Below are positions 12,710 through 15,942 of a stretch of DNA of 64,000 bases, piece after piece; within the stretch, counting starts at the first letter, position 1, and the number at the start of each line of letters is the position of its first letter. The stretch covers positions 6,291,501 to 6,355,500 of the forward strand of contig NZ_CP014870.1 in the NCBI RefSeq assembly GCF_001661075.1, written 5' to 3'. The notes below the pieces were generated by a model, which saw only the letters and a list, made by a program, of their open reading frames with translations, did no database searches and had not been told where the DNA came from. The stretch is from Pseudomonas silesiensis. GTDB taxonomy: Bacteria > Pseudomonadota > Gammaproteobacteria > Pseudomonadales > Pseudomonadaceae. The position numbers and the translations under genes are program-made.

Positions 12710-12991
12710 GCTGTTCTCCACCGCCGATGGTCGGCCTTATGTTGGCGATTCTGCGTATACCGCGAACCACCCATTTACCTATCTGCGACATTCACATACT
12801 TATCGCGACCAGCCCCCAACTACCGGGGGTTGCGCGTCGGGAACAGATTGGGCCATGTCGCCCATGGATAAGGTTCCCGGCAGCGCCGGCCCCACACTCG
12901 CCACAACAGATAAATGCTGTTTGTGTCTTGCGTAGCAACCGTATCAGCCACTATTCGCCGGCCACACAGAATGGCCATGAGGATCAAAACG
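12710..12991. promoter_or_regulatory. Divergent gbcB-gbcA control region
   Basis: 282 bases separating the two start codons. It contains a short hairpin CCCCCAACTACCGGGGG near 12808-12824 and presumably the GbdR target(s), since GbdR is known to activate both genes in P. aeruginosa. I could not place the operator by eye. Confidence 0.55.
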
Positions 12992-14287
12992 ATGGACGTC
13001 ACCGCAAAAATCAGCCTGGGCGATCCGCTGGAACCCGCACGCAAGGCCACCGCGCAGATGCTGCAAGAGCGCGAGCGCACTTTCTCGCTGCCGCAGCCGT
13101 TTTACTCTGACGAGCGGCTGTTTGATATCGACATGCAGGAAATCTTCCAGAAAGAATGGTTGATCGCCGGCATGACCTGCGAGATCCCGACCAAGGGCAA
13201 CTACCTGACCCTGCAGATCGGCAAGAACCCGATCATCGTGATCCGCGGCGCCGAAGGTGTGGTGCATGCGTTCCACAACGTCTGTCGTCACCGTGGTTCG
13301 CGGCTGTGCACCAGTGAAAAAGGCAAGGTCGCCAAGCTGGTCTGCCACTACCACCAGTGGACTTACGAGCTGGACGGTCGCCTGCTGTTCGCCGGCACCG
13401 AAATGGGCGCCGACTTCGACATGAAGCAATACGGCCTCAAACCGGTGAACGTGAAGACCGCCGGCGGCTATATCTTCATCAGCCTGTCGGAGAACCCGCC
13501 AGCCATCGATGACTTCCTGGCGACGTTGAACCATTACATGGAACCGTACGACATGGAGAACACCAAGGTGGCGATTACCACCACCTTGATGGAAAAGGCC
13601 AACTGGAAGCTGGTGCTGGAGAACAACCGCGAGTGCTACCACTGCAACGCCTCGCACCCGGAACTGCTGAAAACCCTGCTGGAATGGGACGACGTCACCG
13701 ACCCGCGGGCCGACCAGGCGTTCAAGGACCACGTCGCCGCCTCCGCCGCCGCCTGGGAAGCCGAAAAAATTCCTTACGCCCACGCCAGCTTCGGCCTGCG
13801 TAACCGTATCGTGCGCATGCCGCTGCTCAAGGGCACCGTGTCGATGACCTTGGACGGCAAGCAGGGTTGCGCCAAACTCATGGGTCGCATCAAGAACCCG
13901 GACCTGGGCTCGATGCGTATCCTGCACCTGCCGCACTCCTGGAACCACTGCATGGGCGACCACATCATCGTCTTCACGGTGTGGCCGATCAGCGCCCAGG
14001 AAACCATGGTCACCACCAAGTGGGTCGTGCACAAGGACGCGGTCGAAGGCGTGGACTACGACGTGGAGCGCATGCGCCAGGTCTGGGATGCGACCAACGA
14101 CCAGGACCGTCGCCTGGCCGAAGAGAACCAGCGCGGGATCAACTCCACGGCGTACCAGCCCGGGCCTTATTCCAAGACCTATGAGTTCGGTGTGGTGAAC
14201 TTTGTGGACTGGTATAGCGAGCGGTTGTTGAACAATCTTGGGGCTGAGCCTGCGCCTTACCTCAAAGGCGTCCCGGTTCAGGGCTAA
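12992..14287 (+). CDS. gbcA: Glycine betaine monooxygenase, oxygenase component
   Basis: Rieske non-heme-iron oxygenase that removes one methyl group from glycine betaine, giving dimethylglycine and formaldehyde. It is 431 residues from MDVTAKISLGDPL, with GAGGA nine bases upstream. The Rieske centre is visible as CRHRGSRLC (Cys-x-His) and CHYHQWTYELDG (Cys-x2-His). The catalytic iron site appears as the NNRECYHCNASHPEL segment with two His. GbcB is the divergent partner. A REP pair follows the stop codon. Confidence 0.97.
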   Translation: MDVTAKISLGDPLEPARKATAQMLQERERTFSLPQPFYSDERLFDIDMQEIFQKEWLIAGMTCEIPTKGNYLTLQIGKNPIIVIRGAEGVVHAFHNVCRHRGSRLCTSEKGKVAKLVCHYHQWTYELDGRLLFAGTEMGADFDMKQYGLKPVNVKTAGGYIFISLSENPPAIDDFLATLNHYMEPYDMENTKVAITTTLMEKANWKLVLENNRECYHCNASHPELLKTLLEWDDVTDPRADQAFKDHVAASAAAWEAEKIPYAHASFGLRNRIVRMPLLKGTVSMTLDGKQGCAKLMGRIKNPDLGSMRILHLPHSWNHCMGDHIIVFTVWPISAQETMVTTKWVVHKDAVEGVDYDVERMRQVWDATNDQDRRLAEENQRGINSTAYQPGPYSKTYEFGVVNFVDWYSERLLNNLGAEPAPYLKGVPVQG

Positions 14288-14410: not shown

Positions 14411-14660
14411 TCAGCTTGAAGACCACCGCACCGACCCATCCTCTCCAATAAACTCCTCAAAACGCTCACCCCCCACCCACCGCACCTTCACATAATCATT
14501 CAACACCCGATCCGGGTAGGTTGAGGTTATCCATCGCGCGCGCTCCCTGAACCGATGTGGATTATTGACGGCTGTCCTTGTGCCGCGTGAGCGAACAGGT
14601 GACCGGCTGAAGTCAACACATGCCTTATAACTGTATGAAATCTGATCTATTGCGTTCAGG
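14411..14660 (-). pseudogene. Possible remnant of an unidentified gene (C-terminal end)
   Basis: On the minus strand a frame ending at the TGA at 14411-14413 stays open for about 80 codons. Its last part looks like real protein, with fragments RFRERARWITSTYP, RVLNDYVKVRW, GERFEEFIGEDG and a terminal VRWSSS. No in-frame start with a ribosome site is visible, and the frame then runs into the repeat array, so the 5' part appears lost. I do not recognise the family. It could also be a chance frame. Confidence 0.3.
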
Positions 14661-14688
14661 CCTATGCGGAACGTGGCTTGCAGGGTTT

Positions 14689-15240
14689 GGCGAACAAGTT
14701 ATCCACAACTCCACCCACAGCTAATGGGGACAAGTGTGCAATCGGTGGAAATTTTATTCACAAAATGCGAAGAAAATCCGTGACTTATCCGGAATCAGGG
14801 TTCCTGGCGACAATTGGCTATTTTTTGATCTAAAGCTTGTAAGCCACGTTTTACCTGGCCCCCAGAGGATGGCGAACACCTTATCCACAGAAGCGCCAAC
14901 AGACTTTGGGGGCAACTATGGCCGCTCTGTGGAAAACCACGGAAACCCGCGATAAATCGGGGTTTTAGGAAGGTATTCCACAATAATACGCTGATTTGAC
15001 TGTTTTTTAACCAGACCCCTGATAGGCCCGTTTTATATGGCCTGCAGCCGACAGCAAACATCTTATCCACAGAAGCGCCAACAGAGATTGGGGGCAAGTA
15101 TGGGTCCGCCAGTAAACTTATCCTCTGGAAAAAGCTCGAGAAAACCGTGAGTTAGGCTGGTTGTTTTTTGTACGAAGGCTTGCAGGGCTTGTTTTACATG
15201 GGGTGCAGCGAGGGGCGAACATGTTATCCACAGAAGCGCT
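14689..15240 (+). repeat. Degenerate ~180-bp tandem repeat, four copies
   Basis: A start motif close to GGCGAACAnnTTATCCACAG recurs at 14689, 14871, 15053 and 15214 (steps 182, 182 and 161). After each box of copies 2-4 comes GAAGCGCyAACAG and then a TTGGGGGCAA-type stretch. Further conserved points are a run of T (near 14819, 15002, 15162) and GTTTTA-yATGG (near 14849, 15031, 15191). Copies are diverged between these points. No convincing gene overlaps. The last copy is cut by a REP at 15267. Confidence 0.8.
14699..15232 (+). promoter_or_regulatory. Array of four perfect DnaA boxes
   Basis: TTATCCACA occurs at 14699-14707, 14881-14889, 15063-15071 and 15224-15232, all in the same orientation, one per repeat unit. 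Looser matches lie nearby (TATTCCACA at 14972, ATTCACAAA at 14757). The 9-mer is the consensus high-affinity DnaA site of E. coli and is close to that of pseudomonads. There is no dnaA, dnaN or gidA nearby, so this is not the usual oriC setting. A DnaA-titrating or -reactivating locus is possible. Confidence 0.6.
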
Positions 15241-15266
15241 AACAGGGATTGTGGGTAAATGATAAA

Positions 15267-15362
15267 CCCTGTAGGAGCTGGCTTGCCAGCGAAGAGGCCG
15301 TAACATTCAACATCTATTTTGACTGTTACGCCGCCTTCGCTGGCAAGCCAGCTCCTACAGGG
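15267..15362. repeat. REP pair, right end of the DnaA-box region
   Basis: Arms TGTAGGAGCTGGCTTGCCAG (15270) and its complement (to 15362). This is a GCTGGCTTGCCAGC subtype not used in the sox operon. It terminates the repeat array just before the GNAT stop codon. Confidence 0.88.
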
Positions 15363-15375
15363 TTGTGGGTAACGG

Positions 15376-15942
15376 CTACGGACGGTACATCAGATACGCC
15401 TCACCCGTGACCCGAATCATCGGGTGCGGCGTGATCTGACAGGTGTCGACGATGCGGAAGCCATTGCGCTCGTAAAACCGGCGGGCGCCGGTGTTTGCGG
15501 CGTAGTCGATCAGGCTCAAGCCGTTGAGGCCCAACTGGTTGGCGCGGTCGTAAGCATAGGCAAGGAATTGCTTGCCCAAGCCCTGGTTGCGCCAGCCTTC
15601 ATGCAAAGCCAGGCTGGAAATGTAGAGGGTGTCGGGGATTTCCATCGTCGCGTAGGGCGCCAGCACCGGGTCGGTTGTCGGCTCTGCCAGCGGATCGTGA
15701 CGCATCACATAGCTGTGCATCATGCCAATGACCTCGTCATTCGCCTGTGCGATAAGGCAGTTCTGCCAGGAGAAGTCTACGTCGTCACGGGCATATCGGG
15801 TGGCGCCGACGTCCAGCAGATCCTGGCCGGGCTGTGCCAGTTGACTCCAGATGTAATCCGCAGCCCCCTCCGATGTGATTTGAAACAAACGCGCAATTTC
15901 CCGCGCGTCCGCACGCACTGCCGAACGAAACTCAACTGTCAT
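15376..15942 (-). CDS. GNAT-family N-acetyltransferase
   Basis: Predicted acetyl-CoA-dependent acetyltransferase of 188 residues from MTVEFRSAVRADAREIA. A GGGG/GAAA ribosome-site region precedes this ATG. The longer frame to 16050 translates REP sequence (RRNAARSKPAPTG) and is rejected. The acetyl-CoA loop is RNQGLGKQFLAYAYDRA (~125-140), preceded by the LYISSLALHEGWR strand and followed by a GARRFYERNGFRIV C-terminal motif. The substrate is unknown. Homologues occur beside the dgc operon in Pseudomonas, but I have no functional link. Confidence 0.85.
   Translation of the reverse strand: MTVEFRSAVRADAREIARLFQITSEGAADYIWSQLAQPGQDLLDVGATRYARDDVDFSWQNCLIAQANDEVIGMMHSYVMRHDPLAEPTTDPVLAPYATMEIPDTLYISSLALHEGWRNQGLGKQFLAYAYDRANQLGLNGLSLIDYAANTGARRFYERNGFRIVDTCQITPHPMIRVTGEAYLMYRP

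Follow-up and report, generated by a model that had tools for sequence, protein, structure and literature searches.

The stretch of DNA analyzed here (the window; 64,000 nucleotides, positions 6291501–6355500 of the single 6.82-Mb contig of Pseudomonas silesiensis) includes an intergenic region that extends from the stop codon of gbcA at 14287 to position 15376, where a GNAT-like ORF ends, and lies 459 kb from the dnaA match at 6.765 Mb. Within it are four exact copies of TTATCCACA, given as the high-affinity DnaA box of P. putida in an excerpt of a published list (PMC4285127), all on the + strand and packed into 534 bp. A preliminary description of this DNA had reported four such boxes in the same orientation with steps of 182, 182, and 161 bp, and these were all found, at 14699, 14881, 15063, and 15224, as was the motif GAAGCGCyAACAG, which follows three of the four boxes. 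The region is also gene-free as described there, the only listed ORF of ≥80 aa inside it being a mechanical one of 100 aa on the − strand (14795–15097). The feature is larger than that description had it: each exact box is the outer member (III) of a fixed 35-bp trio, in which it is followed by 3 bp, a weak same-strand box (II), 5 bp, and an inverted box (I) (9-3-9-5-9), and the weak middle and inverted third boxes of each unit had been missed. The features, in window coordinates and with conservation across 30 aligned loci where given, are as follows.

12914..14287, + strand: gbcA, glycine betaine monooxygenase oxygenase subunit, neighboring gene (NCBIfam GbcA, 806 bits, cut-off 670)
14556..14564, − strand: inverted box TAATCCACA, 143 bp ahead of unit 1 (≤2 mismatches in 17/30)
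14699..14733, + strand: trio unit 1 (III 14699–14707; II, weak, 14711–14719; I, inverted, 14725–14733)
14785..14793, + strand: extra weak DnaA-like box TTATCCGGA between units 1 and 2 (≤2 mismatches in 30/30)
14821..14826, no strand: T-tract 60 bp ahead of unit 2 (T/A tract in 26–28/30)
14881..14915, + strand: trio unit 2 (III 14881–14889; II 14893–14901; I, inverted, 14907–14915)
14928..14936, − strand: extra inverted box TTTTCCACA, 3′ of unit 2 (≤2 mismatches in 30/30)
15003..15008, no strand: T-tract 60 bp ahead of unit 3 (T/A tract in 20–22/30)
15063..15097, + strand: trio unit 3 (III 15063–15071; II 15075–15083; I, inverted, 15089–15097)
15164..15169, no strand: T-tract 60 bp ahead of unit 4 (T/A tract in 26–28/30)
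15224..15258, + strand: trio unit 4 (III 15224–15232; II 15236–15244; I, inverted, 15250–15258)
15376..15942, − strand: GNAT-like acetyltransferase ORF, neighboring gene (NCBIfam acetyltransferase models match, all below cut-off)

At the 3/5 spacing (gaps of 3 and 5 bp), units 1–4 carry 5, 8, 8, and 7 total mismatches, respectively, with box II weak (3–6 mismatches) and box I having 1–3 mismatches in the P. silesiensis genome. Across the 30 aligned loci, the exact box of unit 1 was kept in all 30 and its inverted box had ≤2 mismatches in 28; the exact-box positions of units 2 and 3, and both the box and the inverted box of unit 4, had ≤2 mismatches in every locus. A repeat search identified units 2–4 as diverged direct repeats, 69–76% identical; the array was not reported by Tandem Repeats Finder, and the window had no Rfam match at gathering thresholds. 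Directly 3′ of unit 4, beyond the conserved part, is a near-perfect inverted repeat (15265–15364) with 49-nt arms that are 90% complementary, and five more exact DnaA boxes, also missing from the preliminary description, occur within 8 kb of the array (12235, 16407, 17357, 17616, and 20248).

The exact box occurs 121 times in the genome, compared with 20 occurrences of a reversed control pattern, and none of 3,000 dinucleotide-preserving shuffles of 14640–15265 contained more than one exact box per strand. A chance origin of the array was rejected on the basis of these shuffles, the control-pattern counts, and the conservation scans described below, in which reversed controls gave 0. Along the chromosome, exact boxes were strongly biased toward the origin (56, 24, 14, 15, 4, 5, 3, 0, 0, and 0 in deciles from oriC to the opposite pole), a bias that persisted when boxes ≤5 kb apart were merged; over the whole chromosome, no exact box was listed between 1642347 and 4438550, and dense clusters were present at 6742692–6742962 (five boxes, ∼20 kb from oriC) and 6694414–6694516 (three boxes, ∼69 kb).

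The trio also recurs outside the array. Twelve of the 117 non-array exact boxes, at 11 sites, belonged to a 3/5 trio with ≤7 total mismatches, a cut-off passed by two of the four array units, making 3/5 the commonest of 169 spacings (12 vs. a mean of 0.95 and a next best of 8); 1,000 shuffles of the flanks gave a mean of 0.27 such trios and a maximum of 3. The 3/5 layout was first noticed in the flanks of own-genome boxes, before the spacing scan, so the scan is not blind, whereas the match to Escherichia coli is. A direct search of the genome with the 35-bp pattern returned 13 matches (control 0); nine distinct sites had ≤2 mismatches, and the array accounts for four of these. The array form, with the exact box as the outer member (III), was found in the array and at 667431, 521344, 5849814, 5850016, 6266931, and 6267043, and the E. 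coli form, with the exact box in the middle (II), notably at 1535671 and 4783291. The latter trio, in the region 4783265–4783311 on the other replichore, has two mismatches in each outer box.

DARS sites were worked out in E. coli, and the DARS1 and DARS2 cores read from the MG1655 genome have the same 9-3-9-5-9 arrangement with an inverted third box as the array units. The DARS2 core was placed by primer sequences from an excerpt of the relevant study (rppH-mutH trio, offset 158; PMC4585315), and three boxes with identical spacing at the two DARS sites, box I being reversed relative to the other two, are described in part of another (PMC5742627). Among the 169 spacing pairs, 3/5 was the best in DARS1 (score 3, in total mismatches) and tied for best in DARS2 (score 5), whereas in E. 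coli oriC it scored 11 against a best of 5. A second trio with DARS gaps is present in the MG1655 rppH-mutH intergenic region at offset 474, with 7 mismatches, 316 bp from the DARS2 core.

The array unit thus resembles DARS1 and DARS2 in being an intergenic 35-bp core of three boxes with fixed 3- and 5-bp gaps and box I reversed relative to II and III. The array differs from both in having four tandem cores, in lying near the origin rather than mid-replichore between oriC and terC, in lacking a conserved IHF site, a feature that at DARS belongs, as do Fis sites, to DARS2 only (an IHF-like site was found in at most 6 of 30 aligned array loci), and in its exact box, which is III in the array and II in DARS. 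Boxes 1 and 2 are reported as crucial at DARS2 in the excerpt available (PMC4585315), and good boxes at both I and II were not found in the array, where box II is weak; the array is therefore called DARS-like here and not filed as a DARS. The DARS2 core is described as conserved specifically among E. coli-related gamma-proteobacteria in part of one study (PMC4245941), and DARS-similar sequences in many proteobacteria are mentioned in a section of a review (PMC10380432). No DARS or other DnaA control locus in Pseudomonas was found in the literature searched, the scope of which did not extend to Fujimitsu et al. (2009), a paper that possibly lists DARS-like sites elsewhere.

Absence of the boxes from close relatives had been named in advance as grounds for rejecting a titration or reactivation locus; the boxes proved to be present in relatives, although not in all (see below). 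The strict box triple was present in 196 of 398 genomes (control 0), the 35-bp trio pattern in 185 of 199 same-genus genomes (reversed control 0), and array DNA had BLAST matches in 115 of 149 same-genus genomes, with any match counted and some covering a single core; related genomes in these counts are not independent. At the order level, the trio pattern occurred in 13 of 244 genomes, seven of them from the same family, and the remaining six were judged by eye, on the middle boxes, to be chance matches. A contig scan recovered at least 120 stretches, and 70 of the 80 loci listed were from Pseudomonas, with P. fluorescens, P. chlororaphis, P. viridiflava, P. brassicacearum, and P. alkylphenolica among those named. 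The 10 non-Pseudomonas loci listed were likewise taken as chance, the inverted box having ≥5 mismatches in all three units; three of them (L156, L185, and L208) had one middle box with 0–1 mismatch. In the 210 units of the 70 Pseudomonas loci listed, the best partner offsets were 26 for an inverted box (mean 2.3 mismatches) and 12 for a direct box (mean 4.8), which are the trio's own.

Conservation was concentrated in the trios, with a mean identity over the 30 aligned loci of 0.95 within trios, 0.78 between them, and 0.52 in the flanks, in a set that over-represents close relatives because it was chosen as the best BLAST hits. This profile, together with indels that preserve helical phase (see below) and the zero counts of the control patterns, makes it highly improbable that the array is left over from a tandem duplication and kept its boxes by chance, as the diverged direct repeats of units 2–4 might otherwise suggest. 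The array is not universal in the genus: it was found in none of 10 hand-picked gbcA regions, seven from genomes of the genus that gave no array match and three from sister-genus genomes, and five of these 10 arrayless stretches carry a single trio-like site.

Steps between units vary by about one helical turn. In a search that allowed step windows of 177–195 and 147–169 bp, the 70 Pseudomonas loci listed had steps of only 181–183, 192–194, 149–150, and 159–162 bp, a degree of phase unmatched in 20,000 uniform draws. With the steps of other loci added, including 172 and 299, which the first phase test lacked, the best period was 10.7 bp (R = 0.84). Additional boxes at distances of 26 or 46 bp were left out. 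The strict triple, the trio pattern, the identity profile, and the step lengths strongly support the earlier proposal of a conserved, helically phased DnaA-box locus outside oriC. Together with the phased T-tracts, the phasing could also suit an architectural or secondary-origin role, in which DnaA complexed in phase would fold the region around the origin or, under special conditions, open DNA; this seems very unlikely, since the 3/5 trio is not the layout of the organism's own oriC, where that spacing scored 10 against a best of 6.

In 30 of 31 genomes, the distance from dnaA to the array, or to the best match to its core, was 0.12–0.20 of a half chromosome, and in the remaining one it was 0.34; several genome lengths behind these values were rounded to 0.1 Mb, and some places are those of the best BLAST match, perhaps to one core. 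The exceptional genome (G029, contig C1) is exceptional for both sites considered here, since its 1535671-type site also lies at an unusual position (0.05 of the half chromosome), and reflects either a rearrangement or an assembly fault. Shared gene order contributes to the constant position. Adjacency to gbcA, which the preliminary description had proposed as a search criterion, proved usual but not required: gbc or etf genes were near the array in 12 of 14 hand-picked divergent loci, whereas the other two arrays (L135 and L139) adjoin Rhs-core ORFs without gbc or etf genes, and in those cases the array therefore seems to have moved.

These neighborhoods also bear on whether the array is a DnaA-dependent transcription control element for neighboring genes, with no part in replication timing. 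Its intergenic location, and the position of a separate mid-replichore trio ∼20 bp ahead of an ATG, would fit such a role. It is nevertheless unlikely, given that two of the 14 divergent arrays have other neighbors, that most of the 14 loci lack the GNAT-like ORF that separates the array from etfB (one match), and that a simple operator would need fewer than four phased units.

The origin-proximal position is shared with E. coli datA, an intergenic DnaA-box cluster whose region lies ∼467 kb from oriC by coordinates, or 0.20 of the half chromosome. The main rival reading is accordingly a datA-like sink, in which the origin-proximal array, shortly after its own duplication, binds DnaA or promotes its ATP hydrolysis and so prevents re-initiation. 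Four exact boxes within 534 bp, the extra conserved boxes, and the location at 0.12–0.20 in nearly all genomes would serve this well, and datA itself holds a 3/5 trio with a score of 8, like that of an array unit (best spacing 7; best spacings 10/3 and 11/3). A single unit therefore cannot separate DARS from datA, and the argument depends on the repetition of the unit and on its conservation. Against a sink, the exact trio spacing is conserved, which simple titration would not need, and datA needs an essential IHF site between its boxes according to part of a review (PMC10380432), whereas no IHF-like site is conserved at the array; on balance, a sink is possible but somewhat doubtful. Clusters of DnaA boxes outside oriC are also reported to restrain initiation in Bacillus subtilis and Streptomyces coelicolor, in excerpts of two papers (PMC5742627; PMC4585315), and as described there resemble the array. 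The preliminary description had left titration and reactivation both open; the DARS-core layout leans toward reactivation, while the origin-proximal position and weak box II keep the datA-like alternative alive.

Separate from the array, an E. coli-like trio occurs at 1535659–1535693, with boxes II and I exact, ∼20 bp upstream of an ATG. This site, referred to as 1535671, had matches in 93 of 99 same-genus genomes, a count that includes at least seven genomes (G014, G028, G042, G054, G069, G075, and G082) in which the match spans roughly just the trio and may represent another site, and one (G013) matched outside the trio. Positions 1535655–1535699 were invariant in all 20 aligned loci. Of 20 genomes checked for position, 19 had the site at 0.47–0.63 of the half chromosome and one had it at 0.05. 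It is a better candidate for a true DARS than the array, although promoter control is also possible.

We interpret the array as a chromosomal DnaA control element with four DARS-type cores in tandem that probably affects the nucleotide state of DnaA, a reading to which we assign a probability of about 0.45 and which was drawn from sequence comparisons. It is favored because of the match to the E. coli layout, the 3/5 enrichment, the conservation, the phasing, and the presence of Hda, which is encoded in the P. silesiensis genome above the profile cut-off. Hda generates ADP-DnaA in E. coli, and the substrate for ADP-to-ATP exchange would therefore exist. Reasons to doubt a plain DARS label are the weak box II, the lack of a conserved IHF site, a position like that of datA, and the weak contrast with the datA control. 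Under the DARS-type reading, DnaA would fill the strong box III and then spread to the weaker boxes, bringing AAA+ domains into head-to-head contact over the 5-bp gap, and cores in phase could assemble a single joint DnaA complex; most likely, this complex would promote the replacement of DnaA-bound ADP by ATP, as DARS does. The array probably contributes to the timing of DNA replication.

More tentatively, Pseudomonas may time replication by a genus-wide set of sites with DARS geometry, comprising a mid-replichore E. coli-like core, single or paired strong-III cores nearer the origin, and, at the position that datA occupies in E. coli, the helically phased array of four cores. Cores with a strong box III would then be a functional class of their own, a nucleotide switch of several cores near the origin that perhaps substitutes for datA and in which the number of cores and their phase would set the threshold for initiation; this wider proposal is a speculative one that we consider possible but not likely. 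To our knowledge, Pseudomonas is without Dam and SeqA. For initiation timing in Pseudomonas, these conserved, easily deleted sites with exact coordinates make the question directly testable, and naturally occurring differences in the number of cores and in spacing steps of one turn offer a ready experiment in the geometry of the DnaA complex.
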